DNA of 61,556 nucleotides from Anaerolineae bacterium (GTDB taxonomy: Bacteria > Chloroflexota > Anaerolineae > Aggregatilineales > Phototrophicaceae): NCBI GenBank assembly GCA_025454525.1, contig JALOOG010000013.1, positions 1 through 61,556 of the forward strand. The letters run 5' to 3'. A program made the position numbers and the translations under genes. The notes below the pieces were generated by a model. The model had not been told where the DNA came from and made no database searches. It saw only the letters and a program-made list of their open reading frames with translations. Shown in pieces: positions 38,366-55,537 of this stretch (positions are counted from its first letter, which is position 1; every line of letters begins with the position of its first letter).

Positions 38366-39889
38366 TTATCGCGGGAACATGGTCGCAAGGTTCACGGTAT
38401 TGACTAAATTAGTCGCTAACACAGGCAACAAGCCGAGGATCAATGTACCCGCAAACGAGGCATAGATCGCCCAGTTCACATATTGGCTTGCGCCGGGTAA
38501 CGCTTCACCTTCATCACCCACGGCCGCTTCATTTTCACGCAAGTACATATTCACGATGATTCGCACGTAATAATACGCGCTGACCACACTGGTTAACACA
38601 CCGATGATCGCCAAGGGGATCAGACCTGCCTCTAAAGTGACTTGGAACACCAACCATTTCCCAATGAATCCGGAAGTGGTCGGAATACCGATCAAGCTCA
38701 ACATAAAGAAGGCCATTAGGAACGCTAACAACGGTTGACGACGCGAAAGTCCGATAAAGTCGTCTAAAGTGACATTCGATCCATCGGTTTTTTCTAAGAC
38801 CATCGCCACAGCGAACGCGCCTAAGTTGGTGAAGGTATAAGCCAACAAATAGATCAAGGCGGCTTGTGCGGCTGAGTCACCTAGGCCGGCCGTGCCGGCC
38901 GCAGCTACGGCCATCAAGATATAGCCCGCGTGTGCGATCGATGAATAAGCCAACATGCGTTTGACATTGGTTTGTGCGATCGCCACAAAGTTCCCAAGAA
39001 TCAAAGTTGCAGCCGCGATCAACCATAACGTCGTTTGCCATACCGCGATCGTGCTTTCAGGTAAGGCTAAAGCAGGTAATGCGATGATCATCACACGCAA
39101 AAACGAGGCGAACCCGCCTAACTTGGCAACCACACTCATATAAGCGGTGACAGGAGTCGGCGCGCCTTCATAAACATCGGGTGTCCACATATGGAAGGGG
39201 ACGACCGCTACTTTAAAACCTAAGCCTACGACAAGTAAAGCTGTTCCAGCCAGTAAATACAAGCTAGAGGCGCTTTGTGTGGCGAGAATGCCCTCTACAG
39301 AGCTAAAAATTTCCGTTAAATTGGTCGTACCAGACGCACCATAGATCAACGCCGCCCCATACACCAGAAACGCACTAGAAAACGCGCCTAAGATGAAATA
39401 TTTCATGCCGCTTTCTTCTGAGCGCGCATCGTTGGGACGGAAGGCCGCCATGATATATAGCGGGATGCTCAACAACTCTAACGCCACAAAGATCACCACT
39501 AAGTCATTCGCGGCAGCCATGAACATCGCGCCTGTCGCAGAGAATAACAAGAGGATGTAATACTCTCCCCGCTCCATCTGGTGACGTTTGAGGTAATCAA
39601 TGCTCAACAAGATTGAGATCGCGGTCGCTACAATTACGGCGATATTGGAAAAGCCCGTGAATTGATCGGCGATAAACATGCCTTCAAGCGCGGTCGTGCT
39701 GCTATTGTAGGCAAACAGGTTAAAGATAAAACTGACCGCTAAACCGCCTAGCGCAAGCCAAGCGGTCAGGTATTTACGGTTTTTCGGAAGGAACAGATCC
39801 ACCAATAACAGCAGACACGTCCCTAAAGCGAGTGAGATCGCCGGGAAGGCCGCGCTAAGGTTTAACTGCTCCAGAGTTGGAATGTCCAT
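38366..39889 (-). CDS. nuoN: NADH-quinone oxidoreductase subunit N
   Basis: A 507-residue antiporter-like proton-pumping subunit of complex I, with about 14 membrane helices. Family motifs include FMAAANDLVVIFVALELLSIP (split here as helix 5), the pump-region lysine in GLGFKVAVVPFHMWTPDVYEG, and AYSSIAHAGY. Length is normal and no insertion is seen. AGGAG precedes the ATG at eight bases. It is the last gene of the operon, followed by the terminator. Confidence 0.96.
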   Translation of the reverse strand: MDIPTLEQLNLSAAFPAISLALGTCLLLLVDLFLPKNRKYLTAWLALGGLAVSFIFNLFAYNSSTTALEGMFIADQFTGFSNIAVIVATAISILLSIDYLKRHQMERGEYYILLLFSATGAMFMAAANDLVVIFVALELLSIPLYIMAAFRPNDARSEESGMKYFILGAFSSAFLVYGAALIYGASGTTNLTEIFSSVEGILATQSASSLYLLAGTALLVVGLGFKVAVVPFHMWTPDVYEGAPTPVTAYMSVVAKLGGFASFLRVMIIALPALALPESTIAVWQTTLWLIAAATLILGNFVAIAQTNVKRMLAYSSIAHAGYILMAVAAAGTAGLGDSAAQAALIYLLAYTFTNLGAFAVAMVLEKTDGSNVTLDDFIGLSRRQPLLAFLMAFFMLSLIGIPTTSGFIGKWLVFQVTLEAGLIPLAIIGVLTSVVSAYYYVRIIVNMYLRENEAAVGDEGEALPGASQYVNWAIYASFAGTLILGLLPVLATNLVNTVNLATMFPR

Positions 39890-39909
39890 GAATGGCGCTC
39901 CTAGCGTGA

Positions 39910-41496
39910 TTAGGGTGCTTCAGAGACGCTCGCGGCGTTTTCGACCACGATTTCGTCAATGTGCGGTTGGACATAGTTCACGATCGCCTCGGTGCTGGTG
40001 TCCATGGTGTTAAAGAAACCGACAGGTTGCAAACCAATCCAGAAGATCAACACCAAGATCGGGATCAAGACGGCGATTTCTTGCCAGTGCATCGGCTCAA
40101 GGTGCTTATTTTCCTCTTTATCCAGTTCACCCAAGTAAACTTTTTGGAACATGGCTAAGGTATATACCGCCGCTAAAATCACGCCCAAAGTAGCAAACAA
40201 GGCAAAGAAGAAGCCTAAGACCTCGCTCCCGAACGCGCCCATCAGGATCGTAAACTCACCGACAAAGCCGTTTAAGCCCGGTAGACCCATGCTGCTTAAC
40301 GAGACGATCAAGCTGATCGCACCGAATAACGGGAGCGCTTTCCAGATCCCGCCATAAGCGGCCATCAATTTGGTGTGACGGCGTTCATAGAGCATCCCGA
40401 CCAGCAAGAACAAGCCACCCGTGCTGATACCATGGTTGATCATTTGCAAGGTTGCGCCCTGTAAGCCTTGTGCGTTGAGTGCAAAAATGCCCAACACCAC
40501 AAAACCCATGTGACTCACCGATGAATAAGCGACCAATTTTTTCATGTCCACTTGGGCATAGCTCACCCACGCGCCGTAGATGATCCCAATCACAGCTAAA
40601 CCACCGACCACGGGGGCCCATGCAACCGACGCTTCTGGGAACAGCGGTAAGCAGAAACGCACAATGCCGTAAGTCCCCATTTTCAGCAAGACACCCGCTA
40701 GGATCACCGATCCGGCGGTGGGCGCTTGAACGTGAGCATCCGGTAGCCAGCTATGGAACGGCCACAGCGGCACTTTAATCGCAAAGGCGATCAAGAAGCC
40801 AAGGAATAAGAATGATTGGGTGCTAAACAGTCCGTCAAATGGGAAGCTGACTGCCCCACTCTGCACGGCGTTTACGATCTCCGGTAAAGCGAAAGTGCCG
40901 GCTTGTGTACCGACATACAACATCGCCAATAACATCAAGATAGAGCCGGCCATGGTGTAGAGGAAAAATTTGACCGCGGCATACACGCGATTTTCACTGC
41001 CCCAAATGCCGATCATGAAGTACATCGGGATCAAGGTGACTTCCCAGAAGATATAGAAGATCACCAAGTCTTGCGCGACAAATACGCCGATCATCGCCCA
41101 TTCCAAGAGAAGCATGAAGCCATAGTAGAGCGCTTCACGGCCGCGTTCATGGATCACATGAGAACGGAAAGACGCAAAGACCGCGATCGGGGTGATCACA
41201 GTCGTTAACAACACCAATAACAAACTGATGCCATCAATCCCGACATAGTAGCTGATGCCGTATTGGGGGAGCCAATCATTGCGTTGCACCAATTGGAGCG
41301 CGGGATCGGCCGAGTTGTAATTGGCCCACATCAATAACGACGCAAAAAAGGTCAAAATGCTAAAGGCAAAAGCGACCCATTTAAAGTTTTCACGGTTCTT
41401 TTCTGCATCTAGCAGCGCCATTCCCGCAATGATCGTCAGCCCAACCATCGGTAGAAACAGCGTCACGGTGGTCAGTGACAAACCTGTATTTTCCAT
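39910..41496 (-). CDS. nuoM: NADH-quinone oxidoreductase subunit M
   Basis: A 528-residue antiporter-like membrane subunit. Visible motifs are the Glu-containing helix FYIFWEVTLIPMYFMIG, the lysine helix AFAIKVPLWPFHSWLPDAH, and VAYSSVSHMGFV. These carry the conserved charged residues of the proton channel. Length is usual for the family, unlike NuoL and NuoJ. It lies between nuoL (6 bases) and nuoN (20 bases). Confidence 0.96.
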   Translation of the reverse strand: MENTGLSLTTVTLFLPMVGLTIIAGMALLDAEKNRENFKWVAFAFSILTFFASLLMWANYNSADPALQLVQRNDWLPQYGISYYVGIDGISLLLVLLTTVITPIAVFASFRSHVIHERGREALYYGFMLLLEWAMIGVFVAQDLVIFYIFWEVTLIPMYFMIGIWGSENRVYAAVKFFLYTMAGSILMLLAMLYVGTQAGTFALPEIVNAVQSGAVSFPFDGLFSTQSFLFLGFLIAFAIKVPLWPFHSWLPDAHVQAPTAGSVILAGVLLKMGTYGIVRFCLPLFPEASVAWAPVVGGLAVIGIIYGAWVSYAQVDMKKLVAYSSVSHMGFVVLGIFALNAQGLQGATLQMINHGISTGGLFLLVGMLYERRHTKLMAAYGGIWKALPLFGAISLIVSLSSMGLPGLNGFVGEFTILMGAFGSEVLGFFFALFATLGVILAAVYTLAMFQKVYLGELDKEENKHLEPMHWQEIAVLIPILVLIFWIGLQPVGFFNTMDTSTEAIVNYVQPHIDEIVVENAASVSEAP

Positions 41497-41502
41497 AACC
41501 TT

Positions 41503-44151
41503 TTATCTCCCAATTGCAGGTAACAACATCAAAAGCACCACGGCTACCACGCCGACCAACAGCGCAATAGCGTAAATCCGTACATAACCCGTCTGGGAGC
41601 GGCGCAATTGCCCGCTAAACCATTGGGTGACACGCCCAACCCCATTTACGATCCCGTCAATAATGCCAAGATCAAACGGTTTGCTCAACAACTGCCCGAT
41701 CGAGTTGAAGCCTTTCCAGATCACCGTGTCATGGAAGTAATCATGGAAGAAGTTCCAATCAACCACGTTAGCAAGGAAATTTGAGGCACGGGTATAGGGC
41801 ATGATAAACACCGCATTGTAGATCTCATCCCAGTACATGCGACGGTTAGCAATGCGCCAAATATCGCGGCTGTTGGCATCCACTTCCAACGGGTCTTTGT
41901 TATCCGCATTGACAGCACGGCCACCCCCATAGAGGAGACGTGCTAATACCAACGCACCGATCCCGATCGCTAAGGCGGTTAAAGCGACAATCGGGTTAAA
42001 CGGCGGCGCGGGATGTCCGCGGGCGATGCTAAAATCCAAGAAATCGGATAAAGCATGGCCGCCGAATGTGCCATAAAAGCCAAAACTGAAGATGTTGGCA
42101 AGGCCGCTTGGGATGTTGATGAAACCGACAAACAAGCTGAAGAACGCTAAGATCATGAGCGGGACGGTGATCTGCCAAGGGTTCTCAGAGGCGTTTTCAG
42201 CCGCTGGAGTACGCGGTTTGCCATGGAACACCATTTCGATCTGACGACCCATGTAAAACGCGGTCATACCGGCCGCGACGATTAAGAACCCTAACGCGAT
42301 CACGCCGCGCAAGTCCCCATCCCCAAGGAACAACTTCCACGCATCCGCGAGGATCTCGTCTTTTGACCAGAAGCCAGCAAACGGATAGATCCCGGCAAGG
42401 GCCAGCGTCCCGATCAAGTATGTCCAATAGGTGATCGGCATTTTTTGGCTAAGGCCGCCCATATTTCGCATATCTTGGGGATCAAATGGGGTTTCATGAT
42501 GTGCGTCGTGTGCATCAGCATGTTGTGAGACAGCCGGATTATGATCACCAAGGCTATGATCATCGTGTTCCCCATGCGCGTGATCATGATGTTGACCGTG
42601 ATCATCGTGGCGGCCATGGCCATGATCGTCATGTCCGTGTCCGTGGTGATGTCCGTGTTCGACACCATGGATCACCGAACCGCTCCCCAAGAATAACAAC
42701 GCCTTGAAAAAAGCGTGGGTGATCATGTGGAACATAGCCGCAGCATACGCCCCCATCCCCACCGCGGCCACCATAAAGCCTAATTGACTCACGGTGCTAT
42801 AAGCGAGGACGCGCTTGATGTCGAATTGTCCGATCGCGATAAACCCGGCAACGATCGCGGTTGTCGCACCGACAATTGTGATGATCAACGAGGTGATCTG
42901 GAAGCCATCGATCGTGGCATAGTACAAGAACACATTAGAGCGCACCATGATATACACACCCGCCGTAACCATCGTAGCGGCGTGGATCAAGGCACTGACT
43001 GGAGTTGGGCCGGCCATCGCGTCCGGCAACCACACAAATAACGGAATTTGCGCGGATTTACCCGCCGCCCCCAAGAGTAAGAACAAGGTGATCAAGATCA
43101 ACACGGTGTGAATATCTAACGAAAACGGCCCAAAATCGATCATCCGTCCGCGAGTTTCAGCGATCCCATCCTCACTGATTACACCTGTTTCAAGCGTTTC
43201 GCCGTCTTTCAGCTTGGCTAAGGCGATCGTTTGATTGAACACACCCAATTGGGAAAAAGTAAGATGACTGTTGTCATAGTACACGGGGGCAGCGGCATGA
43301 CCGTGTTCTTCCCCTTCAGCACCATGCGCTTCGCCTTCGCCTTCGCCTTCGCCGTGTCCATCGCCTTCGCCTTCAGTTTCTTCGGCGATTAAGATAATTT
43401 GCGATCCTTCGTGTTCGCCTGAACCTTCTTCGCTGTGATCATCGCCTTCACCGTGATGATCATCTCCAGAGCGGAGATTTTCCATCGCGGTCACATTAGC
43501 GACTTCAGTCGGTTTGTAAAAGTCCAAGGTGCCGAACGTCCAGAAGATCAAGAAGATCGCCATTAACACGCCAAAATCGCCAATCCGGTTAGCGATGAAC
43601 GCCTTACGGGCCGCGTTAGCGTTGCGCCAACCTTCACCGCGGGTTTTATCCCACCAGAACCCGATCAACAGATACGAACACAAGCCCACGCCTTCCCAAC
43701 CGACAAACATCATCAGGAAGTTATTCCCCGTGACGAGGGTATACATGAAAGCGAGGAACATATTCAGATACGCAAAGAAACGCGGAAAACGTGGATCGCC
43801 GTGCATATACGACGAGGCGTACAGGTGGATCAACGTCCCCACAAACGAGATAAACACCAACATCGACACGCTTAACGTATCGACGCGCTGATTCCAACCG
43901 ATCTCCACACCAGCCGACGGGATCAAGATCCAACTGTTTAAAAACGGTGGGTTGATCACAGCCGCTTGGAATGAATTGGCGTTCAGGTAGCTTAGGAGTG
44001 CTAAGGCTACTGGGAACGTCAAGCCTGCGGCAACCGTGCCGATGATCGCGCTATAGCGTTCACCGAGGCGATTCCCCCAGAAAAAGTTGATAAAAGCCCC
44101 GATTGACGGAAATAAGATCATCAAGGGCGCAAGATAAGCGAGGTTTTGCAT
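41503..44151 (-). CDS. nuoL: NADH-quinone oxidoreductase subunit L with two charged, His-rich insertions
   Basis: About 882 residues, against 610-650 normally. The antiporter core is intact: FVGWEGVGLCSYLLIG, GAAGKSAQIPLFVWLPDAM, THAFFKALLFLGSGSV and FAGFWSKDEIL keep the pump Lys, His and Lys-Asp. Insertion 1 (about 215-337) is Asp/Glu/Gly/His-rich. Insertion 2 (about 497-560) has 21 His among about 56 residues, interleaved with Asp and Gly. They lie before helices 7 and 12, equivalent places in the two inverted five-helix modules, so they should face opposite sides of the membrane. ATG 44151 with GGAAGG is preferred over TTG 44160. Confidence 0.95.
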   Translation of the reverse strand: MQNLAYLAPLMILFPSIGAFINFFWGNRLGERYSAIIGTVAAGLTFPVALALLSYLNANSFQAAVINPPFLNSWILIPSAGVEIGWNQRVDTLSVSMLVFISFVGTLIHLYASSYMHGDPRFPRFFAYLNMFLAFMYTLVTGNNFLMMFVGWEGVGLCSYLLIGFWWDKTRGEGWRNANAARKAFIANRIGDFGVLMAIFLIFWTFGTLDFYKPTEVANVTAMENLRSGDDHHGEGDDHSEEGSGEHEGSQIILIAEETEGEGDGHGEGEGEGEAHGAEGEEHGHAAAPVYYDNSHLTFSQLGVFNQTIALAKLKDGETLETGVISEDGIAETRGRMIDFGPFSLDIHTVLILITLFLLLGAAGKSAQIPLFVWLPDAMAGPTPVSALIHAATMVTAGVYIMVRSNVFLYYATIDGFQITSLIITIVGATTAIVAGFIAIGQFDIKRVLAYSTVSQLGFMVAAVGMGAYAAAMFHMITHAFFKALLFLGSGSVIHGVEHGHHHGHGHDDHGHGRHDDHGQHHDHAHGEHDDHSLGDHNPAVSQHADAHDAHHETPFDPQDMRNMGGLSQKMPITYWTYLIGTLALAGIYPFAGFWSKDEILADAWKLFLGDGDLRGVIALGFLIVAAGMTAFYMGRQIEMVFHGKPRTPAAENASENPWQITVPLMILAFFSLFVGFINIPSGLANIFSFGFYGTFGGHALSDFLDFSIARGHPAPPFNPIVALTALAIGIGALVLARLLYGGGRAVNADNKDPLEVDANSRDIWRIANRRMYWDEIYNAVFIMPYTRASNFLANVVDWNFFHDYFHDTVIWKGFNSIGQLLSKPFDLGIIDGIVNGVGRVTQWFSGQLRRSQTGYVRIYAIALLVGVVAVVLLMLLPAIGR
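43330..43376. repeat. hexanucleotide tandem repeat inside nuoL
   Basis: TCGCCT-type units repeat about six times with one interruption, encoding a Gly-Glu run of insertion 1. Such short repeats can change copy number by slippage, always in frame here because the unit is six bases. Confidence 0.7.
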
Positions 44152-44156
44152 CAGCT

Positions 44157-44456
44157 TCAACCTTCCATTTGATGCAGCTCATCAATGTTGATGCTCTGCT
44201 TGGTACGGAAAATCGCAACGATTAACGCTAAACCGACCGCGACTTCCGCCGCCGCGACGGTGATCACAAAAAACACAAATAAATGACCTTCAAGACCGCC
44301 CCATTGACGGGCAAAAGCCACTAGCGCGAGATTTGAGGCATTCAGCATCAGCTCAACCGACATAAACACCAAGATCGCGTTACGTTTGAGCAACACCCCT
44401 AACACGCCCATCGAAAACAGGACGGCACTTAAGATAATATACGCATCAATAGCCAT
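44157..44456 (-). CDS. nuoK: NADH-quinone oxidoreductase subunit K
   Basis: A 99-residue, three-helix membrane subunit. The conserved glutamates are visible in VFMSVELMLNASNLAL (helix 2) and in VAAAEVAVGLALIVAIFR (helix 3), which form part of the proton path. Length is normal. AAGGAG precedes the ATG. Its stop overlaps the possible TTG start of nuoL. Confidence 0.97.
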   Translation of the reverse strand: MAIDAYIILSAVLFSMGVLGVLLKRNAILVFMSVELMLNASNLALVAFARQWGGLEGHLFVFFVITVAAAEVAVGLALIVAIFRTKQSINIDELHQMEG

Positions 44457-44468
44457 AGATCAGACTCC

Positions 44469-45830
44469 TTAATCGCCCACCGGGTCTTGTGTCGGTTGGG
44501 GAAGTTGCGGCGCATTGGTGGATACATCCGTACCCGTTTGAGCCGCGATCACACTGGTCAACGGGCGACTCACCTTGCGGCGCGTGGCGCGGGAAGGCTT
44601 GGGTTGCGAGTCTTCACGATGCGTCAAGACGATTACACCGACCATCGCCGCTAACAACAACAAGGCCACCAATTGTAACGGGAGCAGGTAATCGATAAAC
44701 AACAAACCACCCACCGATTCAGGTGTACCAAAATTGGGGGCTGCGTCTCCAACCAAGTTTCCACCGTCGATCAGATCAGCGCGCACTTGACCGCTCACCG
44801 CATCAGTTTCGGCAGCCAACACTTGCAGCTTAGAAACGCCGCGTTCGATCTCAATATCCGGTAAACGATAGAGCAACGCATCTTCAGCCAACGTATTCCG
44901 GTATTCTTCTTCACGTCCCGCTTCAATCACCCGCCATTCATAACGGCCTTCGGGGATCTCAACAGATGCAGAGTCGCCTTGTGCCAAGTTAGATACGAGG
45001 ATGTCAAGGTTACGGCTGTCATCAAACAAGATCGAATTTACGCGCACGATGCTGATCGCCCCAACTCCTGGGAAAGCGTTGTAGACGGTCACACGGCCAT
45101 TACGACGTTGGACGGGCGTAAAATCGTCATTTAACGTGTCCACGACCAAGGCATGATCCGCTGTGGGACGCACAATCACCGTAAGTGATGACTGTGGCGC
45201 TAAGCTGATCGCACTGGTCAGCAACGGAGTCGCATCACCCGCTGCATGTATCGCGATCGTGTGATCTCCGGCTGGGACTTCGGTGAAATCAGTGGCGTGA
45301 CCCGCTTCAATGTCATCAGCGAATAATTCACCATTCACATACAGGTCAACATGGGTGACGACAGGTTGCGTCGCTTCCCCTTCCATTGCGACCGTTTCAG
45401 TCTCTTCAGTGCCTTCGATCGCGGCGTTGAGTAAGCGTAATTGCGCGGTTGCGTTGACCGGTTCCGGGGTGGTTTCCGCTTGTCCAGCAAACAGGATCAC
45501 CAAAGACAACATGATCACCAACGATAATACCAACGCCAGCGCCGCCCCACCGACCCATGGATAGGTGCGAACCGACTCCCCAACGGGCAAGCGTTCCGCG
45601 CCAAGCAACATGATCACGAAAAGGAACAACACCATGATCGCGCCTGCATAAACGGCGATCTGCACCATCGCCAAAAACGAGGCTTCAAGAATCAAATAAA
45701 GCACCGCGACACAGATAAAGTTGACGATCAGCCATAAGGCACTGTGAACCGCGTTTTTTGAGCCGAGCATCATCGCGGCGGCAAAAACCGCGAAAATCCC
45801 GACGATTCCGAATAAAACATTTTCTATCAT
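44469..45830 (-). CDS. nuoJ: NADH-quinone oxidoreductase subunit J with inserted DUF4397-like domain
   Basis: The 453-residue product is over twice the usual about 180. The NuoJ core is present: helices 1-4 (to about 115, including VQIAVYAGAIMVLFLFVIML) and helix 5 (about 379-403, LLPLQLVALLLLAAMVGVIVL area). Between them lie about 250 extra residues. They include VDLYVNGELFADDIEAGHAT and VPAGDHTIAIHAAGD (about 161-200), matching the DUF4397 pattern, then a second related half (about 245-305). The basic tail after helix 5 predicts a cytoplasmic C-terminus, so the insert is extracytoplasmic. AGGA precedes the ATG. Confidence 0.93.
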   Translation of the reverse strand: MIENVLFGIVGIFAVFAAAMMLGSKNAVHSALWLIVNFICVAVLYLILEASFLAMVQIAVYAGAIMVLFLFVIMLLGAERLPVGESVRTYPWVGGAALALVLSLVIMLSLVILFAGQAETTPEPVNATAQLRLLNAAIEGTEETETVAMEGEATQPVVTHVDLYVNGELFADDIEAGHATDFTEVPAGDHTIAIHAAGDATPLLTSAISLAPQSSLTVIVRPTADHALVVDTLNDDFTPVQRRNGRVTVYNAFPGVGAISIVRVNSILFDDSRNLDILVSNLAQGDSASVEIPEGRYEWRVIEAGREEEYRNTLAEDALLYRLPDIEIERGVSKLQVLAAETDAVSGQVRADLIDGGNLVGDAAPNFGTPESVGGLLFIDYLLPLQLVALLLLAAMVGVIVLTHREDSQPKPSRATRRKVSRPLTSVIAAQTGTDVSTNAPQLPQPTQDPVGD

Positions 45831-45849
45831 TAGATTTGCGTCCTGTATG

Positions 45850-45883
45850 GGCGTTTGTGCAAAACTTTGTGCAGTTTAACACA
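45850..45883 (-). repeat. direct repeat upstream of nuoJ
   Basis: On the minus strand TGCACAAA occurs twice, 12 bases apart, between the hairpin and the nuoJ ribosome site (plus-strand GTTTGTGCAAAACTTTGTGC near 45853-45872). Possible internal regulatory site. Confidence 0.35.
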
Positions 45884-45886
45884 AAG

Positions 45887-45916
45887 AGCGCCAGAGTTCA
45901 AAGTTTCTCTGGCGCT
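45887..45916 (-). terminator. intercistronic hairpin between nuoI and nuoJ
   Basis: AGCGCCAGAG (45887-45896) pairs with CTCTGGCGCT (45907-45916), 10-base loop. It lies 21 bases after the nuoI stop in a 106-base gap, the widest in the operon. No clear U-tract follows, so a processing or partial termination site is likely. Confidence 0.55.
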
Positions 45917-45936
45917 GTCTGAGCGAACACTTGCGC

Positions 45937-46431
45937 TTATTTCGGGTTTTCCATGTCAGGAATCGACCGATTAAACGCGCCCGGTGCGACCTGTTGCGGT
46001 GTGTCTTGGCCGCCGGCCGGAACGGGGTCAATCAACATTTCTTTGGTAAAGATCACATCACGGCGATCCGTAAAGCTTAACTGATGTTCATGCCCCAATT
46101 CGATCGCTTGCGTGGGACAAGCATCTTCGCAATAACCACAGAAGATACACCGTAGCATATTGATCTCATAGGTCTTAGCGTAACGTTCACCAGGGCTATA
46201 ACGTTCCTCGTCGCTGTTTTCGGCCGCTTCTACCCAGATCGCATCGGCGGGACAAGACGCGGCACATAACGAACAGCCGATGCACTTCTCTAAGCCGTTA
46301 TCATAACGACGGAGATGATGACGGCCCTTGTAACGTTGTTGGAACGGGCGCACCTGTTCAGGATATTGCAAGGTCACCGATTCTTCTAAGACGTGCTTAA
46401 ACGTCGTGGCAAACCCTTTAATTACATTCAT
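45937..46431 (-). CDS. nuoI: NADH-quinone oxidoreductase subunit I
   Basis: The 164-residue ferredoxin-like subunit carries two [4Fe-4S] clusters (N6a/N6b). Both cysteine sets are complete: CIGCSLCAASCP (about 51-62) and CIFCGYCEDACP (about 96-107). GAGGA precedes the ATG. It is the last gene before the intercistronic hairpin. Confidence 0.97.
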   Translation of the reverse strand: MNVIKGFATTFKHVLEESVTLQYPEQVRPFQQRYKGRHHLRRYDNGLEKCIGCSLCAASCPADAIWVEAAENSDEERYSPGERYAKTYEINMLRCIFCGYCEDACPTQAIELGHEHQLSFTDRRDVIFTKEMLIDPVPAGGQDTPQQVAPGAFNRSIPDMENPK

Positions 46432-46458
46432 CGTCTAAAATCCTCACCCCTACCCTGA

Positions 46459-47997
46459 CTACTGTGCAATCTTACCGCTTGGATCGGCGGGAGAGCGGTC
46501 TTCGGCCGCAACGGGCTTATTATCACTCGCTTCCGGTTCATCACCGGCCAATTGACCCAACCGCTCCAATAAATTTATTGTGCCGGAAAATAACACAAAC
46601 GGGACGGCCAATAACCCACCGACCGCTTGTAACACCATATACCCTAATCCCACCCGTTCTCCAGTGATCATCGGGTCAGATTCAACATCAGGTTCTTCTT
46701 CCACCGTGGCCGGATTCGGACGGCTTAAGAAGGCCAATCCACCGAACACCACGACCGCAAACGCGATCCCAGAGATGATCATATAAGCAGTCGGGCCGAA
46801 CGCATCCGCGATCACCACGGCTACGGCCGTCCAACACACCGCCAACAACGAGAGCGGTAACAACACCTTCCAACCGAACGACATCAAACGATCATAACGC
46901 AAGCGCGGCAAGGTCGCACGAATCCAGACCAAACCGATCAAGAACAAGACCACTTTGCCGATCGTAACCAGTGGCCCGACAATCGGCGCGCCGTTTTCAA
47001 GTCCGAAGCCCGTGCCGTATCCCCCGAAGAACATCGCAGCCGCGATCATGCTCACCGCGATCATGCCAAGGTATTCGGCCATCATGAACATCGCGAATTT
47101 CATGCCACTGTATTCGGTCATAAAACCTGCCGTGAGTTCCTGCTCCGCTTCTGGAAGGTCAAACGGGGCGCGATTGGTTTCGGCGATCAAAGCGATGATC
47201 AAAATGCCCGCCGCTAACGGATTCTGAAATACAAACCAATTGAGGAACAATCCGCTTTGCGCGTCGATAATATCGCGCACGCTCATACTAGCCGCGATCA
47301 TCACCGGCACGATCATCGCCAAGCCAAGGCTTAACTCGTAACTGATCATCTGGGCCGAAGCACGCAACCCGCCTAACATAGCGTATTTGTTATTGCTGGC
47401 CCACCCTGCTAACGCGATCCCATACGTACCGACACTGGTGATCGCCAATAACCATAACACCCCGACCCCGGGATCGGCGATACCCATCGGAACGCGATAC
47501 CAGTTGCCATCAAACCACGGGATCGTAATCGGTGGCCCTAACGGGATCACCGCCATCACGATCAAGGCCGGAACGGTCTTGAGCATCGGTGAGATCAGGT
47601 AAACTGTGCGATAAGCATCGGCGGGCATGATGTCTTCTTTGAAGATCAATTTCAATCCATCTGCCGCCGGTTGTAATAACCCCCATGGGCCGACGCGATT
47701 GGGGCCGCTCCGTTGTTGAAACCACGCGATAAACTTACGCTCTAACAAGGTGGTATAAGCAAACCCCGTCACCACGATAAACGTAAAGATCGCGGAGTAC
47801 AGGATCGGGTGCAAGACCGAACATCCTTGCGAGTCCTCGCACAGGATCGGGTTGTTAAAGCCGCCGGAATTGATCATACCAATCAAACCGCCGATGATCG
47901 TCACGGTGATCAAACCTAACAAGATCACCACCGCTAACCCGCCTAATACTAAGGCGGGCATCAACGGCACTCCAAACACTCTCCGATTCGTTACCAT
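46459..47997 (-). CDS. nuoH: NADH-quinone oxidoreductase subunit H with C-terminal extension
   Basis: The quinone-site membrane subunit. Core motifs are QRSGPNRVGPWGLLQPAADG, LKLIFKEDIMPADA and APFDLPEAEQELTAGFMTEY, the last with the acidic residues of the E-channel. At 512 residues it is well above the usual 330-430. After the core (about residue 400) come two more hydrophobic segments (about 403-424 and 451-475) and a polar Asp/Glu/Pro tail. The role of the extension is unknown. It begins three bases after nuoG. Confidence 0.95.
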   Translation of the reverse strand: MVTNRRVFGVPLMPALVLGGLAVVILLGLITVTIIGGLIGMINSGGFNNPILCEDSQGCSVLHPILYSAIFTFIVVTGFAYTTLLERKFIAWFQQRSGPNRVGPWGLLQPAADGLKLIFKEDIMPADAYRTVYLISPMLKTVPALIVMAVIPLGPPITIPWFDGNWYRVPMGIADPGVGVLWLLAITSVGTYGIALAGWASNNKYAMLGGLRASAQMISYELSLGLAMIVPVMIAASMSVRDIIDAQSGLFLNWFVFQNPLAAGILIIALIAETNRAPFDLPEAEQELTAGFMTEYSGMKFAMFMMAEYLGMIAVSMIAAAMFFGGYGTGFGLENGAPIVGPLVTIGKVVLFLIGLVWIRATLPRLRYDRLMSFGWKVLLPLSLLAVCWTAVAVVIADAFGPTAYMIISGIAFAVVVFGGLAFLSRPNPATVEEEPDVESDPMITGERVGLGYMVLQAVGGLLAVPFVLFSGTINLLERLGQLAGDEPEASDNKPVAAEDRSPADPSGKIAQ

Positions 47998-48000
47998 TCG

Positions 48001-50478
48001 TTAATCTACCTTACTTACTCTACCGAGAGTCATCGTCATCGGAACGGCCTCTGTTGTCAAATGGCGCGGCAAAACGATACTGCCTTCCGGCGCGCCGCCG
48101 TTAACATGCGCTTTCACGCGGACACGCATCGTATCCGCCACAATTTCTACCACATCTCCGCTCTTGATGCCCAATTTAGCAGCATCGGCGCTATTGATCT
48201 CGGCATACGGCATCATGACACGCGGGTGCATCAAGGCACTCGGCAAGAACGTGCGCTCACGGTTGTATAACACGGTAGTCGGCACGATCAACATTTGACC
48301 CGCTTGTGAACGCGGCGCGTTGACCAATTCCACGGGCGCGGTATTGATGGCTTCCCCACTTTCGGCGGTTGTTTTCAGTTGCACACCCAAGCCACCGCGA
48401 TTTTGATAAGCGGTACCGCCGTAATAGAGATCGCGTCCGCCCACATCAGGGAATTGCCGTTTGACATTGGAGATCTCTTTATAAGTCACCCCTGCAAACG
48501 CCGGGACGTTTTTAGCGATGTCTGCCATGACGGTTGCGGCCGAAAGTTTCGCCTTGCCACGTCCCAATTTTTCACCCAACCGCGATAACACTTGCCACGC
48601 GGGTAACGCATCGGCGATCGGGCCTTGCGCGGTATAGAAACGTTGGACACGACGTTCACCGTTGGTAAAGGTGCCGTCACGTTCGGCGAAACTTTGGATC
48701 GGGAGGATCGTATGTGCCTCGTGGCTCAAAGTCTCATCAGCAAACAGGGTCAAGTTGATCACAGTTTCGACTTCATGCACCCATTGCGACGCGCTAGGAT
48801 CATCATGATAGAGATCCGCTTGGGCCACAATCAACACTTTCGGCGGGTTGATCATGATGTCTTGCGTATTTTCGGGGGTAAAGCCCATGTAATACTGTCC
48901 CATGCCATTCGGGCCGGGGAAAGTCGAAAGTAAGCCGTTGTTCGGTTTACCCACATGGCCGGTTTCAATCAAGAAGTTAGCAGCCGCTTGCATCAAAGCG
49001 CGGCTACCGTCTAAGCTAAGGCCTTCCGCTCCCGTTAAGATGATCAGGTTATTCGCTTGTGCCAGTTGTTGCGCGAGATCCGGGTTTTCGGCGCGGAGAT
49101 TGCTCAAGAAATGCGCCGCCATTCCGTAATCATAGCGTAAACAGGCCGTCGCAAAGTCTTCCATACGGGTATGACGTGCGTTCGCCACGGCCAAGAATAC
49201 GCCGCGTTCTTTCGCCAATTTGAGACGTAAGCGCCAGATCGGGACTTCTTCTTCAAGGTCACTGGCGATGATCAACACCGCGTCCCCTTTGCCCAAGTCG
49301 CCTAGATTCGATCCCACGCCGACTCCGACTTGTGCGACCAGATCCGCCCCCGCATGGGTGATCGGCCACGCGCCTAAGCGGGTCGATCCAACCGCGGACA
49401 TCACTTCACGCAAGGCCCACAGATCTTCATTGCTCATCTGACTGCCCGCGATCGCAGCCACGTCTTTTCCGGCCGCTTTGAGGATGCTTGCCACCGATTT
49501 AAGCGCTTCTTCCCAAGTGGTTTGCATCAATTGACCGTTGGCATTGCGGATCATCGGGGATTGTGCGCGGTTTTCGCTCCGGGTGAAGTGATGACCAAAA
49601 CGCGCTTTATCGGAGATCCAGATCTCATTAACTGACTCGTTTTGACGAGGCATCACGCGCTTGATCATCGCCTTGCCACCAAAATCACGATCAAGACGAA
49701 TGCTTAAGCTGATATTGGAGCCGGCCGCGTCAAACGGATCGATACTAGGCACTTCCGTGAGTTCCCATGGACGCGCCCCAAACCGGAAATCGGCGGTGGT
49801 CAGCGCCCCCACCGGACAAATGTCGGTGGTATTGCCAGAGAAATAGGTATCGAAACCGGGGTTACTGTTGGTGATGATCTGAAGGCGGCGGCCGCGTTCA
49901 TGGAAGGCCAAGACATCATCGCCCACCAATTCATCTTGAAAGCGCACGCAACGCGCGCATTGAATACAGCGTTCTTCATCCAAGTAGATCAGATCGCCCA
50001 ACGGGACATGCTTATCAAGGTGTTGTTTGTCTTGAAACTGCATCCGACTCATGCCGGGTCCGTGTTCCATCGTCAAATTTTGCAACGGGCATTCACCACC
50101 CTTATCACAGATCGGACAGTCTAATGGGTGACTGGTGAGCAGAAATTCGATCACATTTTGACGGGCTTGATCGACTTCGGCGGTATTGGTACGGATCACC
50201 ATGCCATCGGTGACTCGTTGAGTACACGCTGTCTGAAGTTTCGGCATCCACCGGACTTTAGGTTGGCCGTGTTCGTCTAAGACGACTTCCCCGGTAGCGC
50301 GGTCTTTTTCGATCGCGCCTTGTTGTACCAAACACATCCGGCACATGCCAACGGGTTCCATTTTAGGATGATAGCAAAACACGGGGATGTCATTATCCGC
50401 GTGCCACTTTGCCGCATCCACCAAGTTCATCCCTGCTGGGACATCATACTCGCGATCATCAATATAGATTTTGACCAT
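48001..50478 (-). CDS. nuoG: NADH-quinone oxidoreductase subunit G
   Basis: About 825 residues from ATG 50478. The N-terminal ferredoxin part has a [2Fe-2S] site (CYHPKMEPVGMCRMC), the Cys/His cluster (HPLDCPICDKGGECPLQ) and the [4Fe-4S] site (ERCIQCARC ... TDICPVGAL). A molybdopterin-oxidoreductase-like domain follows (about 240-815) without visible Mo-binding Cys, as is normal in NuoG. The family's N-terminal FeS residues are complete. GAGAG lies upstream of the ATG. Confidence 0.95.
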   Translation of the reverse strand: MVKIYIDDREYDVPAGMNLVDAAKWHADNDIPVFCYHPKMEPVGMCRMCLVQQGAIEKDRATGEVVLDEHGQPKVRWMPKLQTACTQRVTDGMVIRTNTAEVDQARQNVIEFLLTSHPLDCPICDKGGECPLQNLTMEHGPGMSRMQFQDKQHLDKHVPLGDLIYLDEERCIQCARCVRFQDELVGDDVLAFHERGRRLQIITNSNPGFDTYFSGNTTDICPVGALTTADFRFGARPWELTEVPSIDPFDAAGSNISLSIRLDRDFGGKAMIKRVMPRQNESVNEIWISDKARFGHHFTRSENRAQSPMIRNANGQLMQTTWEEALKSVASILKAAGKDVAAIAGSQMSNEDLWALREVMSAVGSTRLGAWPITHAGADLVAQVGVGVGSNLGDLGKGDAVLIIASDLEEEVPIWRLRLKLAKERGVFLAVANARHTRMEDFATACLRYDYGMAAHFLSNLRAENPDLAQQLAQANNLIILTGAEGLSLDGSRALMQAAANFLIETGHVGKPNNGLLSTFPGPNGMGQYYMGFTPENTQDIMINPPKVLIVAQADLYHDDPSASQWVHEVETVINLTLFADETLSHEAHTILPIQSFAERDGTFTNGERRVQRFYTAQGPIADALPAWQVLSRLGEKLGRGKAKLSAATVMADIAKNVPAFAGVTYKEISNVKRQFPDVGGRDLYYGGTAYQNRGGLGVQLKTTAESGEAINTAPVELVNAPRSQAGQMLIVPTTVLYNRERTFLPSALMHPRVMMPYAEINSADAAKLGIKSGDVVEIVADTMRVRVKAHVNGGAPEGSIVLPRHLTTEAVPMTMTLGRVSKVD

Positions 50479-50539
50479 AGCTTCTCTCATCAACTAAACG
50501 TCGTCGCTGACGTGTAAATTTATAAAAGGTGGGGTCATT

Positions 50540-50917
50540 TTACCGATTTTTTAAGCGATGTGCGCGTTCGAGTCCACGTTGAGCGCGATCGCGCATCACT
50601 TGCGCCAAAACCCCCCAAGTTTCCGACTTTAATCCCGCCTCACCTAAGCGGAGTGCATGTTGAAAATCGCTGACCGCTTGATCGATCAATCCAGCCTCTA
50701 GGTGCAATTCACCGCGCAACACATAACCGGACGAAAGTTCCCCGTTCTGTTCAATGGCGCGATCTAGCATAGCAAGGCGGCGCGTGAGACTTTGAGTGCG
50801 TTCGGCGGCGGTGGGAAACCAACGGCGGCGAAACCGCTCCCAAGCGTTATTTTCAACGCGAGAGGGTGACGGATCACCCTCTCCGGCGCGGGTATCGTGT
50901 ACCTGCTCAGTCATCAT
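50540..50917 (-). CDS. small TPR protein inside the complex I operon
   Basis: The 125-residue soluble protein has a polar N-terminus and two TPR-like units (TRRLAMLDRAIEQNGELSSG, LHLEAGLIDQAVSDFQHAL). It is not a known Nuo subunit. Its ATG overlaps the nuoF stop (TAATG) and nuoG follows after about 60 bases, so it is made with the NADH-module subunits. An assembly chaperone or accessory subunit is an attractive guess; nothing in the sequence proves it. Confidence 0.8.
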   Translation of the reverse strand: MMTEQVHDTRAGEGDPSPSRVENNAWERFRRRWFPTAAERTQSLTRRLAMLDRAIEQNGELSSGYVLRGELHLEAGLIDQAVSDFQHALRLGEAGLKSETWGVLAQVMRDRAQRGLERAHRLKNR

Positions 50918-52278
50918 TAGTCACCCGCGGGGACTAATCCGGTTTTTTCTGTGCCACGACCTGCGCGGCCTTGGGCCGCTCCACCTGCACGTTTTGGTGC
51001 GGCGACGGCCTTTTTCTCTTGTTTGAGGGCCGGATCAACATAGCGCTTAAATTCATCGGGGAAGTGTTTGATCGTAGCGATGATCGGGTTGGCGGCAAAG
51101 TCCCCCAACGCGCACAAAGTAACCCCTTGCATATTTTTCGCCACGTTTAAGATCAAGTCCACATCCGACGGCGCACCGTCCCCAGTGATGATCCGATCTA
51201 ACACCTTGTCGATCCAATAAGTGCCTTCACGACACGGCGTGCATTTGCCACAGCTTTCATGTTTGAAGAACTTGGCCATTTTCGACGCGGCCCAAGCAAT
51301 ATCGATGCTGTCATCCAACACGATCACCGAAGCAGAACCTAACACCGTGCCGATTTTGTCCATATCCTCATAGGTCAATGGGGTGTCTAAAACTTCATCT
51401 GTGGCCGGCACGATTGGGCCAGAAGCACCAGAAGGTAAAATCCCCTTGATCCCGCGTCCGTCTGGGATACCACCTGCGTGATCGTAGATCAATTCGCGGA
51501 AGGTGATGCCCAATGGCAATTCATAGTTGCCGGGCTTGACGACATTGCCGCTCACGCAAAATACTTTGGTACCGGGGCTTTTTTCCGTACCAAAAGCGCG
51601 GAAAGCCTCCGGGCCTTCATAGAGGATAAACGGCACATTGGCTAACGTCTCGACATTGTTCACCACCGTCGGCTCACCATAGAGTCCGCCGCCTTTTTGC
51701 GCGGGGAACGGTGGACGGACGCGCGGTTGACCTAATTTGCCTTCTAAACTGTTAAGCAAGGCGCTTTCTTCACCGCAAATATACGCGCCCGCGCCGAGAT
51801 GCGTATACACCTCACACGAATAAGTGCTACCGAGGATGTTTTGCCCCAAGTAACCCGCTTTACGCGCCTCTTCGATACATTGATCCAATTGGGTAGCCAG
51901 ATCCCAAAATTCACCACGCAAGTAGATATAGACCGCTTTCGCTTGGATCGCATAGGCGCAAATCAACGCGCCTTCGATCAACTGATGCGGGTTGTTCTCC
52001 ATAATTTGACGGTCTTTAAACGTGCCGGGTTCACTCTCATCCGCATTCACCGCGACATATTTCACCGGCTCATTTTTGGGGATAAAACTCCATTTCACCC
52101 CCGTCGGAAAGCCCGCCCCGCCCCGCCCGCGTAAACCAGACGCTTTGACGGTGTTGATTACTTCATCGGGGGTCATGCCTAAGGCTTTTTTCAATCCGGC
52201 GTAACCCGCGTTGTTGACATAAACATCCAATTCGCGGATGTTTTCGACTTCATGTTCACGGAACAAGATATGCTTCAT
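50917..52278 (-). CDS. nuoF: NADH-quinone oxidoreductase subunit F
   Basis: The FMN- and NADH-binding subunit. Motifs are SGLRGRGGAGFPTGVKW (about 48-64), GAGAYICGEESALLNSLEG (about 166-184) and the N3 cluster ESCGKCTPCREGTYW (about 340-354). The core ends near residue 415; a basic, Ala/Gly-rich tail of about 35 residues (AAPKRAGGAAQGRAGRG) is extra. TTG 52287 opens the frame, but ATG 52278 has AGAGG at a suitable distance. Confidence 0.96.
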   Translation of the reverse strand: MKHILFREHEVENIRELDVYVNNAGYAGLKKALGMTPDEVINTVKASGLRGRGGAGFPTGVKWSFIPKNEPVKYVAVNADESEPGTFKDRQIMENNPHQLIEGALICAYAIQAKAVYIYLRGEFWDLATQLDQCIEEARKAGYLGQNILGSTYSCEVYTHLGAGAYICGEESALLNSLEGKLGQPRVRPPFPAQKGGGLYGEPTVVNNVETLANVPFILYEGPEAFRAFGTEKSPGTKVFCVSGNVVKPGNYELPLGITFRELIYDHAGGIPDGRGIKGILPSGASGPIVPATDEVLDTPLTYEDMDKIGTVLGSASVIVLDDSIDIAWAASKMAKFFKHESCGKCTPCREGTYWIDKVLDRIITGDGAPSDVDLILNVAKNMQGVTLCALGDFAANPIIATIKHFPDEFKRYVDPALKQEKKAVAAPKRAGGAAQGRAGRGTEKTGLVPAGD

Positions 52279-52304
52279 AATCGTCAATCCTCTAACAATA
52301 AGAC

Positions 52305-52808
52305 TCAGCGACTACCGTTGACTTGCTGGTTAACCTCGTTACGCCACTGTTCGATCAACACCTTCATCTTGTCCATGTCGAGGTTTTCGGCAAAGTGGAA
52401 ATTGCATTGCAACATCGGCGCTTTGTCACACGCGGCCAAACACATCACATGCTCTACAGTGAACATCCCGTCGGCCGTGGTGCCGCCTTCCTCAACTTCA
52501 AGATACGCTTTTAAGTCCTCATGGAACTGATCCGCCCCGCGCAATGCACATGGCAAATCCGTACACACCTGTAACCAATATTTGCCTTTGGGTTTTTCCG
52601 AATACATCGTGTAAAAGCCCGCGATCGATTTGACTTGCGTCGCATCCATATCGCAGATCTCCGCCACTTGATCGATCCCTTCCGGACTCACCCACCCGTA
52701 TTCCTCTTGGGCGATATACAACAAGGGCATCACGGCCGAACGTTTATCCGGATACTTGGACAAGGTGTGGGTGATGCGATCTTGATATTTTTGCTGAAGC
52801 TGATTCAT
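52305..52808 (-). CDS. nuoE: NADH-quinone oxidoreductase subunit E
   Basis: The 167-residue thioredoxin-like [2Fe-2S] subunit. YGWVSPEGIDQVAEI and SIAGFYTMYSEKPKGKY are family blocks. The cluster ligands are C-x4-C in CTDLPC and C-x3-C in CLAAC. AAAGGA lies seven bases before the ATG. Between nuoD and nuoF. Confidence 0.96.
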   Translation of the reverse strand: MNQLQQKYQDRITHTLSKYPDKRSAVMPLLYIAQEEYGWVSPEGIDQVAEICDMDATQVKSIAGFYTMYSEKPKGKYWLQVCTDLPCALRGADQFHEDLKAYLEVEEGGTTADGMFTVEHVMCLAACDKAPMLQCNFHFAENLDMDKMKVLIEQWRNEVNQQVNGSR

Positions 52809-52827
52809 CCGTCTTTTCCTTTAGCCG

Positions 52828-54090
52828 TTAACGGTCACAATCGCCCAATACAATGTCCACACTGCCGATGATCGCCACCACATCCGCGATAAAATGATTC
52901 TTGGTGATCATCGATAACGCGCTGATATGGATCAAGGACGGAGTTTTAAAGTGAACACGGCGCGGTTTATTGCCGCCCGTCCCATGCAAATAGCAACCGA
53001 TCTCACCACGCGGGCTTTCAATCGCCATGTACACTTCGGCATCTGGCGCAGAGAAGCCTTCTGTCCACAATTTGAAGTGGTGGATCACCGCTTCCATGCT
53101 CTGCCCTAATTCAGAACGAGGGGGCGGGACAAATTTGCGGTTATTAGAGCGGAATCCCCCGCTGGCTTGGGTGAGATGTTTGAGCGCTTGCCGGATGATG
53201 CTCACACTTTCGCGCATCTCGCGCACCCGCACGATATAGCGATCATAAACATCCCCATGTTCACCCAACGGCACATCAAACGAATAATGGCCATAGGTCA
53301 GATAAGGGGAAGTTTTGCGAATGTCCCAATTGACTCCACTAGCACGTAAGCTGGGGCCGGTGATCCCATAGGCTAAGGCCACATCCGGCTCAATCACGCC
53401 GATCCCTTGTGTGCGATCGATCCATACTGGGTTGTTGGTCAAGAGTCGTTCGTAATCGTCAATTTTAGCGGGAAAGTAATTTAAAAACGTCTCTAAAGCG
53501 GGTAAAAATTCTTGCGGTAGATCACGCCACACCCCACCCGGACGAATATACGATCCCATCATGCGTTGACCGGAGAGCATCTCGAACATATCGAGGATCA
53601 TTTCGCGCTCACGGAAGCAATACAAAAACACGCTCATCGCGCCCATATCGATCGCGTGCGTCCCTAACCAGACCAAGTGACTGTTGAGGCGCGTCAATTC
53701 TAAGCAGATCGTGCGGATCACTTGAGCGCGTTCTGGCACATCCAGATCGGTCAATTTTTCGATCGCCATGCAAAACACCATGTTATTCGACATGGGCGCA
53801 AGATAATCCATGCGATCGGTAAGCGTCACCCCTTTTTCATAGGTTTTGGCTTCAATATTCTTCTCAATGCCCGTGTGCAGATAGCCTACGTCTGGGATAC
53901 AGGAGACAATCTCCTCACCATCTAATTCCAATAGCAACCGTAACACGCCGTGGGTGCTGGGATGATGCGGCCCCATGTTGAGCATCATCGTTTCGCCAGT
54001 CAAGGCGCGTTCCGAAACTAGCCCTTTGAGTTCACTTAAGTCACCCTGCCATTCATTTTGGGCAGCGGTGGTCATCGCCATGTTTGCCAT
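52828..54090 (-). CDS. nuoD: NADH-quinone oxidoreductase subunit D
   Basis: The 420-residue 49-kDa-type subunit at the quinone site, related to NiFe hydrogenase large subunits. Family blocks include LNMGPHHPSTHGVLRL (about 38-53), GYLHTGIEKNIEAKTY, LVWLGTHAIDMGAMSVFLY and the end FIADVVAIIGSVDIVLGD. Separate from nuoC, not fused. A second ATG three codons in is possible. Confidence 0.96.
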   Translation of the reverse strand: MANMAMTTAAQNEWQGDLSELKGLVSERALTGETMMLNMGPHHPSTHGVLRLLLELDGEEIVSCIPDVGYLHTGIEKNIEAKTYEKGVTLTDRMDYLAPMSNNMVFCMAIEKLTDLDVPERAQVIRTICLELTRLNSHLVWLGTHAIDMGAMSVFLYCFREREMILDMFEMLSGQRMMGSYIRPGGVWRDLPQEFLPALETFLNYFPAKIDDYERLLTNNPVWIDRTQGIGVIEPDVALAYGITGPSLRASGVNWDIRKTSPYLTYGHYSFDVPLGEHGDVYDRYIVRVREMRESVSIIRQALKHLTQASGGFRSNNRKFVPPPRSELGQSMEAVIHHFKLWTEGFSAPDAEVYMAIESPRGEIGCYLHGTGGNKPRRVHFKTPSLIHISALSMITKNHFIADVVAIIGSVDIVLGDCDR

Positions 54091-54103
54091 CGTCCACGTT
54101 CCC

Positions 54104-54643
54104 CTATTTCTGACCCTTGACTTTATGTTTCATGATTTCTTCTACATTGAACGAGAACTGAATGGTTTCATACCCCAACGGGTAATCGCGCCGATGTGGG
54201 TGGCCATTCCAATCATCCGGCATCAACAACCGCCGCGGATCAGGATGTCCCTCAAAAATAATGCCCATCATGTCCATGATCTCGCGCTCTAACCAATTGG
54301 CCGCGGGCCAGATCTGGATAATCGTCGGCAGTGAAGGCGATTCTTCTTGGACATACGCCTTGATCCGTAAACGACGGTTATACAACAACGAATAGAGATG
54401 ATACGCCACTGCGAAACGCCCCGGACGATGCCCATAGTCCGGGTAATAATCTACCGCGCTGATGTCTGACAAAAAGTTGTAGATCAGCCCCGTGGTATCA
54501 CGCAAAAATTGCATCACACGCACGATCTGTTCACTATCGATCACGATCGTAACTTCATCGCGAAATTCGATCACTTCTTGGATCACATCCGGGAAATAAG
54601 TTTTCAGTGTCACCACTGGATCAAGCGCTTGCGCTATGTTCAT
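54104..54643 (-). CDS. nuoC: NADH-quinone oxidoreductase subunit C
   Basis: The 179-residue 30-kDa-type subunit of the peripheral arm. The signature WPAANWLEREIMDMMGIIFEGHPD and RRLLMPDDWNGHPHRRDYPLG (in two adjacent blocks, about 112-155) is diagnostic. Length is normal. It begins three bases after nuoB. Confidence 0.96.
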   Translation of the reverse strand: MNIAQALDPVVTLKTYFPDVIQEVIEFRDEVTIVIDSEQIVRVMQFLRDTTGLIYNFLSDISAVDYYPDYGHRPGRFAVAYHLYSLLYNRRLRIKAYVQEESPSLPTIIQIWPAANWLEREIMDMMGIIFEGHPDPRRLLMPDDWNGHPHRRDYPLGYETIQFSFNVEEIMKHKVKGQK

Positions 54644-54646
54644 GAT

Positions 54647-55132: not shown

Positions 55133-55485
55133 TCTAGCGCACCCTTCTTCCACTCATATACTAAGCCAATGGTCAAAATTAAGGTAAACAGCCCCATCAC
55201 GGCGAGTCCATACACCCCAAGATCGCGCAACACCAGCGCGAACGGGATAAAAAAGATCACTTCAACATCAAACAAGATGAACAACACCGCAACCAGATAG
55301 AATTTTACCGGTAACCGGCGTGTCCCCGGCCCGATCGGTTTCATGCCGCTTTCATACGGCGCAGTTTTACGCATTGTGGGATGATGCGGCCCAAAGATGC
55401 GTGAGATCACTAAGATGATAAACGTTAACAGAATGGTGATGATGATAAACGGCAGTATTGGCGCGAATTCTTGCAATGCGGTCAT
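55123..55485 (-). CDS. nuoA: NADH-quinone oxidoreductase subunit A
   Basis: About 120 residues with three membrane helices. The core [20 protein letters not shown] and [17 protein letters not shown] are diagnostic. The frame is open to 55566, but that start would sit on the promoter; ATG 55485 with CCGAGG upstream is preferred. First gene of the 14-gene operon. Confidence 0.95.
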
Positions 55486-55505
55486 GCGATTTAACCTCGG
55501 TTTAG

Positions 55506-55525: not shown

Positions 55526-55537
55526 TGAAGTAGATAA

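Follow-up and report, generated by a model that had tools for sequence, protein, structure and literature searches.

Complex I has highly conserved core subunits, and what has been added to it is mostly viewed as separate accessory subunits. The locus described here raises the question of what a large extra segment might be doing inside one of these core subunits, NuoJ, one of the E-channel subunits along with NuoA, NuoK and a portion of NuoH (passages of PMC10212512). The window, that is, the whole stretch of DNA analysed, comprises 61,556 nucleotides of contig JALOOG010000013.1 from an Anaerolineae bacterium of the order Aggregatilineales, hereafter the order. An earlier note on this DNA had proposed that NuoJ carries a DUF4397-like domain in a loop outside the cell.

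The nuoJ gene and the limits of its insert

The nuo cluster of the window (38366..55566, reverse strand) has the order A B C D E F (small ORF) G H I J K L M N as judged from open reading frames and Pfam, with nuoN at the 38366 end and nuoA at the 55566 end. All 14 nuo genes are present, every product matches Pfam families of complex I or the matching iron-sulfur and antiporter families, and the gene order of the cluster is similar in relatives. The nuoJ gene (44469..45830, reverse strand) is one open reading frame that encodes a complex I subunit J of 453 residues and is flanked by nuoK (44157-44456) and nuoI (45937-46431). Its product matches Pfam Oxidored_q3 over residues 18-120 with an E-value of 6.8e-36 and 123.6 bits, for a cut-off of 33.2. 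Residues 1-117 (45480..45830, reverse strand) hold the TM1-TM4 core, including the conserved TM3 segment, according to the Oxidored_q3 match, hydropathy and AlphaFold2 (AF2), and residues 367-453 (44472..44732, reverse strand) hold a pre-TM5 segment, TM5 and a basic, presumably cytoplasmic tail, which realign with insert-free NuoJ. Hydropathy places helices at 5-23, 30-48, 58-76, 96-114 and 385-403, none of them within the insert, and AF2 gives core helices at 2-23, 27-47, 52-80 and 91-117. Positions 60, 61, 63, 64, 66, 67 and 71 are identical in all 71 rows of an alignment in which one row is a duplicate and one lacks the insert. The five transmembrane helices and conserved TM3 of a NuoJ are thus found by hydropathy, AF2 and invariant columns, and in these features, as in the gene order K-J-I and the 14-gene cluster, the protein resembles NuoJ/ND6/Nqo10 (Oxidored_q3), from which it differs in that its TM4-TM5 loop is longer by about 245 residues. 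With regard to automatic naming, none of the listed NCBIfam models scores this NuoJ up to its own cut-off, the best reaching 121.1 bits where the NuoJ equivalog cut-off is 192; since the matches split around the insert, this is read as a limit of automatic naming that leaves the identity of the protein unaffected.

The insert was delimited by comparison with six insert-free NuoJ of the same order (L051-L056, 180-225 residues), whose BLAST pieces end at 81-126 and resume at 346-367 of the window protein, and by a multiple alignment with insert-free NuoJ, which has a gap between about 126 and 367. It was taken as residues 118-366 (44733..45479, reverse strand), a segment that is absent from insert-free relatives and predicted to be extracytoplasmic, and that lies between helices 4 and 5 much as the range of 116-370 first proposed. 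The match to DUF4397 (PF14344) covers residues 156-261 (45048..45365, reverse strand) with 57.0 bits, an E-value of 3.7e-15 and a gathering cut-off of 30.6, and was returned at the same spot by the genome search, so that the family assignment of the earlier note holds. Oxidored_q3 and DUF4397 are both matched at E ≤ 1 in each of the 25 proteins of alignment A1, and DUF4397 scores above its cut-off in NuoJ of all 11 further genomes. Profiles of the first and second halves of the insert align with a probability of 96% and an E-value of 3e-9, which makes the insert a tandem repeat and bears out the kinship that had been suspected for its second half. The first predicted beta-sandwich repeat spans residues 127-238 approximately (45117..45452, reverse strand; AF2 strands at 128-235), and the second, homologous to the first, spans residues 243-362 approximately (44745..45104, reverse strand; AF2 strands at 244-362).

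A misassembly, a frameshift or a fusion that joined two genes is excluded, since the fetched loci supplied 69 distinct NuoJ sequences with the insert and 134 of the 154 genomes of the order have it; the G+C content is unremarkable (0.539 in the insert, 0.51 and 0.567 in the flanks). The presence of an extra domain inside NuoJ is thereby confirmed.

Two other features of the cluster were considered for co-gain with the insert. NuoL (41503-44160) has 885 residues, of which 42 are histidines, and carries loops rich in histidine, aspartate and glutamate at about 215-300 (judged by eye) and at 497-556, which are possibly metal-binding. Insert-free relatives also have a long NuoL, with shorter and less extreme loops, and co-gain was rejected. 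The small ORF between nuoF and nuoG (50540-50917, 125 residues; TPR matches below cut-off, E 0.016) occurs in many relatives and gave no match in the loci of G035, G036, G131, G145 and G150. Since it is present in G011 and in the insert-free G034 and absent from the insert-bearing G131, its co-gain was likewise rejected.

Predicted fold and side of the membrane

In the AF2 model of the whole NuoJ, built from 21 sequences, the mean pLDDT is 74, with ten-residue blocks at 89-96 over residues 161-260 and at 81-94 over residues 281-340. Residues 122-366 modelled alone reach a pLDDT of 87.4 and a pTM of 0.86, with beta strands and one helix of at least four residues. Structure prediction thus yields a folded domain, and the insert is predicted with confidence to fold as two beta-sandwiches. 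Foldseek against the PDB is led by eight PepT1/PepT2 chains (E 7.9e-9 to 2.1e-7), below which cell-adhesion proteins and family 41 carbohydrate-binding modules appear among others, at E 3e-5 to 5e-4 and TM-scores of at most 0.27; given these two kinds of match, the ligand could as well be a glycan as a protein. VIA-align superposes the insert model on the extracellular domain of PepT2 (5a9i_A) with Z 15.1, 180/194 residues aligned, an rmsd of 3.1 and 12% identity. Ranks 1-7 are all PepT (Z 13.8-15.1), the next fold scores 11.9 through the second repeat only, and the whole-NuoJ model has the same best match, PepT2, at Z 15.0. The second repeat only is matched by 8jl4_A (titled 'membrane proteins', 11.9) and by HGSNAT (11.3), and the first only by the PepT1 domain 5a9d_A (Z 11.7). 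AlgF, of alginate biosynthesis (6czt, 6d10), offers one domain per repeat, its N-terminal domain matching the first (Z 9.5, 81 aligned, rmsd 3.3) and its C-terminal domain the second (Z 9.7, 89 aligned, rmsd 2.5); unlike the insert, it lies outside the core subunits of membrane enzymes. Rows at Z ≤ 8 hold assorted folds, many of them beta-sandwiches.

In sequence, the insert-only profile gives weak matches to PepT1 (E 0.051) and AlgF (E 0.091), and the whole-NuoJ profile a weak match to PepT (E 0.007). No solved structure is significant with the insert profile, and no NuoJ or ND6 chain in the PDB list, where the longest listed chain has 252 residues, matches the insert by sequence. PepT appears to be the nearest solved fold found, with a likeness at the level of the predicted fold and weak similarity in sequence. 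As modelled, the insert has the layout of PepT1/PepT2 (SLC15A1/2; 5a9i, 7s8u, 7nqk), namely a membrane protein with an extracellular loop (here a predicted location) that holds two tandem Ig-like beta-sandwiches, with a Z-score of about 15; it differs in its carrier protein, in being bacterial rather than animal, and in the low identity and non-significant insert-only profile already given.

The outer side of the membrane is suggested by charge, hydropathy and paired cysteines. The net charge of the insert has a median of -22 in 69 sequences (range -41 to -5) and likewise in 25, the C-terminal tail has a net charge of +3 (median of 25) and is more positive than the insert in 25 of the 25 proteins of A1, and no hydrophobic helix is found in the insert by hydropathy. 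Cysteines number zero in 45 of the 69 distinct inserts and exactly two in the other 24, where they stand 4-8 residues apart, which fits disulfides outside the cytoplasm. The pairs lie at three different positions of the insert by group (L028, L048-L049, L061, L068 and others), and this use of different places in different groups suggests that disulfides were gained separately. The earlier placement of the loop outside the cell is, at the level of prediction, supported.

The genome of the window holds, besides the stretch in nuoJ, 14 other DUF4397 matches elsewhere, and the three of these proteins that were looked at all start with signal-like segments (judged by eye). The NuoJ pair shares with exported DUF4397 (PF14344) proteins the domain family, the tandem repeats and the predicted extracytoplasmic location, whereas the three looked at are free-standing, with signal-like N-termini, and the NuoJ pair sits inside a multi-pass core subunit. 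These three exported proteins carry -5 to -14.5 charges per 100 residues versus -10.7 for the insert, and this comparable acidity of exported proteins led to the rejection of the insert as a special proton antenna.

By analogy with the PepT fold, we tentatively favour the reading that the tandem DUF4397-type pair inserted between TM4 and TM5 of NuoJ in the NADH-type enzyme, outward by prediction, is a docking or tethering module that is dispensable for pumping. The insert would fold independently and leave the pumping core unchanged; the module would bind another protein or the cell envelope; and this binding would position complex I or gather partners, as has been proposed for the tandem Ig-like domain of PepT1/PepT2. 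The foldability of the insert alone, its PepT-like form and the conserved core argue for such docking, as do its predicted outer side, the constraint on its sequence and its retention in genomes with no further DUF4397 match. Passages of PMC4597091 describe the extracellular domain of PepT as removable and as binding trypsin via a di-acidic motif, and there is no reason for expecting the same binding in the NuoJ insert.

The subunit and the loop that carry the insert would place it next to the E-channel. From position alone, the module could be regulatory, with outside binding that shifts TM4/TM5 of NuoJ and through them governs the TM3 bulge and the E-channel, and passages of PMC10212512 make the conformation of NuoJ TM3 central to coupling models. 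However, neither a ligand nor a conserved pocket came to light, and the position of TMH4 varies among species, perhaps without catalytic effect (passages of PMC7614202), so that this reading is considered extremely improbable. A conversion of NuoJ, in most of the order, into a surface receptor that binds an extracellular or envelope partner, both placing complex I in the membrane and feeding back via TM4/TM5 on the E-channel, is very unlikely as well, if slightly less so.

The main rival of the docking module, although judged unlikely, is a built-in accessory subunit, in which the module packs against adjoining membrane subunits at their outer faces and lends stability to the arm. It owes this standing to the accessory subunits that mitochondria have on the intermembrane-space side of ND6, to the neighbours of NuoJ TM4 and to an ovine hairpin. 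According to passages of PMC8762328, NDUFS5 and NDUFA13 contact ND6 on that side in mitochondria, TMH4 of Yarrowia and bacterial ND6/NuoJ lies between TMH16 of ND5, TMH1 of ND4L and TMH6 of ND2, and bacterial NuoJ TM4 adjoins NuoL TMH16, NuoK and NuoN; passages of PMC7614202 describe a smaller beta-hairpin between TMH4 and TMH5 of ND6 in ovine complex I. The mitochondrial loop thus also bears additional structure on the same membrane side, in the form of a short hairpin and separate accessory subunits, in contrast to the two covalently inserted domains predicted for NuoJ here.

Distribution, history and constraint

The insert is a widespread trait of one order. The 134 insert-bearing genomes, a count that includes G003 by frame length alone and in which some matches span only part of the insert, belong to five families (93/98 genomes of f1, 16/18 of f2, 5/5 of f3, 10/10 of f4 and 10/11 of f7). 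Short insert-free NuoJ occur in ten genomes of the order, namely G011 (f2), both members of f5, the single member of f6 and six of the nine members of f8. NuoJ of G013 is truncated at a contig end, and nine genomes (G037, G052, G076, G080, G093, G137, G146, G148 and G149) gave nothing better than E 4e-13. A survey of the class (396 genomes, 350 with a match; 37 in the order) returned at least 35 full-length matches, all in the order, and in a survey of the phylum (400 genomes, 372 with a match) the full-length ones among the matches listed came only from the two sampled members of the order. Across the 704 Chloroflexota genomes outside the order, part of which have no NuoJ match, no full-length match was found among the matches listed. 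Phyla beyond Chloroflexota were sampled through the best 80 of 578 relatives from named genomes; 20 of these 80 span the insert, and they are titled Anaerolineae, Anaerolineaceae, Anaerolinea, Chloroflexi or Chloroflexota (for instance, Anaerolineae bacterium CFX9). Three long frames outside the order contain NuoJ with a match to the core only (G189:C59, 736 residues; G734:C4, 338; G770:C289, 380) and are possible cases of other fusions or insertions.

Ten genomes were opened at a second NuoJ, which in every one of them is part of a second complex I cluster that comprises A, H, J, L, N and at least two M-like genes. A match to K was obtained in nine of the ten, H and M are in pieces in G035, and the 14-20 kb fetched yielded none of B, C, D, E, F, G and I. 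The second-cluster NuoJ has 174-201 residues in all ten, seven of which carry the insert in their canonical cluster, so that among the genomes opened the insert is specific to the NADH-type cluster. These membrane-arm loci (L169 on contig C135 of G000, and L170-L178) resemble the extended '2M' complex I known from the literature.

A tree built by quick search from NuoH, I, K, L and M in concatenation (71 rows, with SH-aLRT support only) gathers all insert-bearing rows in one clade of 41 rows with support 100. The sister of this clade is f5+f6, with f8 outside, both groups being without the insert. Within the clade only G011 lacks the insert. It groups with the eight other f2 rows at a support of 99, its terminal branch is long (0.47), and a 13.8-kb contig of this genome carries genes A to L with a NuoJ of 204 residues. 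The presence of the insert requires a minimum of two changes, and since the relations of the five families are not resolved in it, the tree by itself fits two gains as well as a single gain with a loss. The identical insertion site and the alignability of the inserts favour one gain; most simply, the insert was gained once in the ancestor of the five families and lost once, the loss in the single long-branch genome G011 being probable. This genome, which keeps genes A to L, makes the insert apparently dispensable, as the docking module would be, and its probable natural loss counts against a stabiliser of the membrane arm.

The rate of change of the insert points the same way with regard to the stabiliser. 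In the 13 closest pairs, whose insert dS lies between 0.17 and 0.63 and nine of which have no sequence in common, dN/dS amounts to 0.05-0.27 for the insert and 0.00-0.09 for the core, with the insert above the core in 11 of the 13. A wider set, in which 193 of 2415 pairs passed the filter, has medians of 0.29 for the core and 0.83 for the insert; most of its pairs are saturated or poorly aligned, and the 13 closest pairs were therefore relied on. L153 (Frankia), a long frame without the insert, belongs to the wider set and is outside the 13. As judged from these coding sequences, the insert is under purifying selection that is looser than that on the core. Its identity to the insert of the window is 22-37% in alignment A4, and only three positions are invariant among 21 sequences, which suggests that there is no tight conserved interface of the kind that a stabiliser would present.

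Fast evolution, probable loss and the lack of a partner found would also agree with a tolerated passenger, in which case a domain once slipped into a loop that permits it and has stayed with no selected role beyond harmlessness. This is quite improbable in view of the retention of the insert in 134 of 154 genomes and five families, of dN/dS values well under 1 in close pairs, and of the genomes in which the insert is the sole remaining DUF4397 match (11 genomes of five genera). Against the docking module, in turn, it weighs that the purifying selection on the insert could come from folding alone.

Partners sought and meaning of the module

DUF4397 was found in 149 of the 154 genomes of the order and is a single match in 14. 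Comparison of coordinates places the single match in NuoJ in 11 of the 11 insert-bearing genomes among these (G004, G083, G084, G085, G090, G097, G099, G114, G117, G126 and G131; five genera), eight of which are at least 90% complete with at most 5% contamination; in the other three (G076, G146 and G153) no insert-bearing NuoJ was found. In the 11 genomes, the NuoJ module thus outlasts other DUF4397 domains, and since no other was found there, its partner cannot be another DUF4397 protein. Retention of the module in these 11 genomes is also what a built-in stabiliser would lead one to expect. A companion DUF4397 gene near nuo was sought and rejected, as 101 of 101 insert-profile hits have a NuoJ core in the loci fetched before a later set. 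The docking module that we favour has against it that neither a companion gene nor a partner was seen in the loci fetched.

A quinol-oxidising complex, either cytochrome bc or alternative complex III, was considered as the partner, the module then serving as a supercomplex contact that docks complex I to it. A cytochrome b family match is present in 144 of the 154 genomes, and G011, insert-free inside the insert clade, has no such match and carries ActD of alternative complex III; both observations speak for the contact. However, six of the ten genomes without a cytochrome b match carry the insert (G005, G007, G009, G015, G016 and G051, 80-93% complete), which led to the rejection of cytochrome bc as a strict partner, and five insert-free f8 genomes have a match (G145, G147, G151, G152 and G153). 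ActD was found in 26 of the 154 genomes, that of the window not being among them; a general partnership with alternative complex III is unlikely, and in most genomes the partner would be another one. Overall, the supercomplex contact seems distinctly unlikely, about as much so as the passenger. With regard to the cytochrome b matches themselves, many in f1 (e.g. G000:C178:8006-8536), f3, f4 and f7 lie in frames of approximately 570-660 residues, besides shorter ones, and those listed for f2 lie in frames of approximately 410-500 residues.

In the open-licence literature, no paper with both NuoJ and DUF4397 and no description of a complex I with such outer domains on NuoJ was found, in agreement with the earlier note, and a term search of the main text of a 2025 genome census of complex I (PMC12361115) returned none of NuoJ, insertion and DUF. 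The earlier interpretation of the NuoJ insert is supported. A core subunit of the E-channel region appears to carry two folded, predicted outer domains across five families of one order. The insert-free sister families and one probable loss offer a natural comparison, with, without and lost, for attachments to the outer face of complex I. Furthermore, a layout of the PepT type, with Ig-like domains in tandem within an extracellular loop, would here be seen in an unrelated, energy-converting enzyme.
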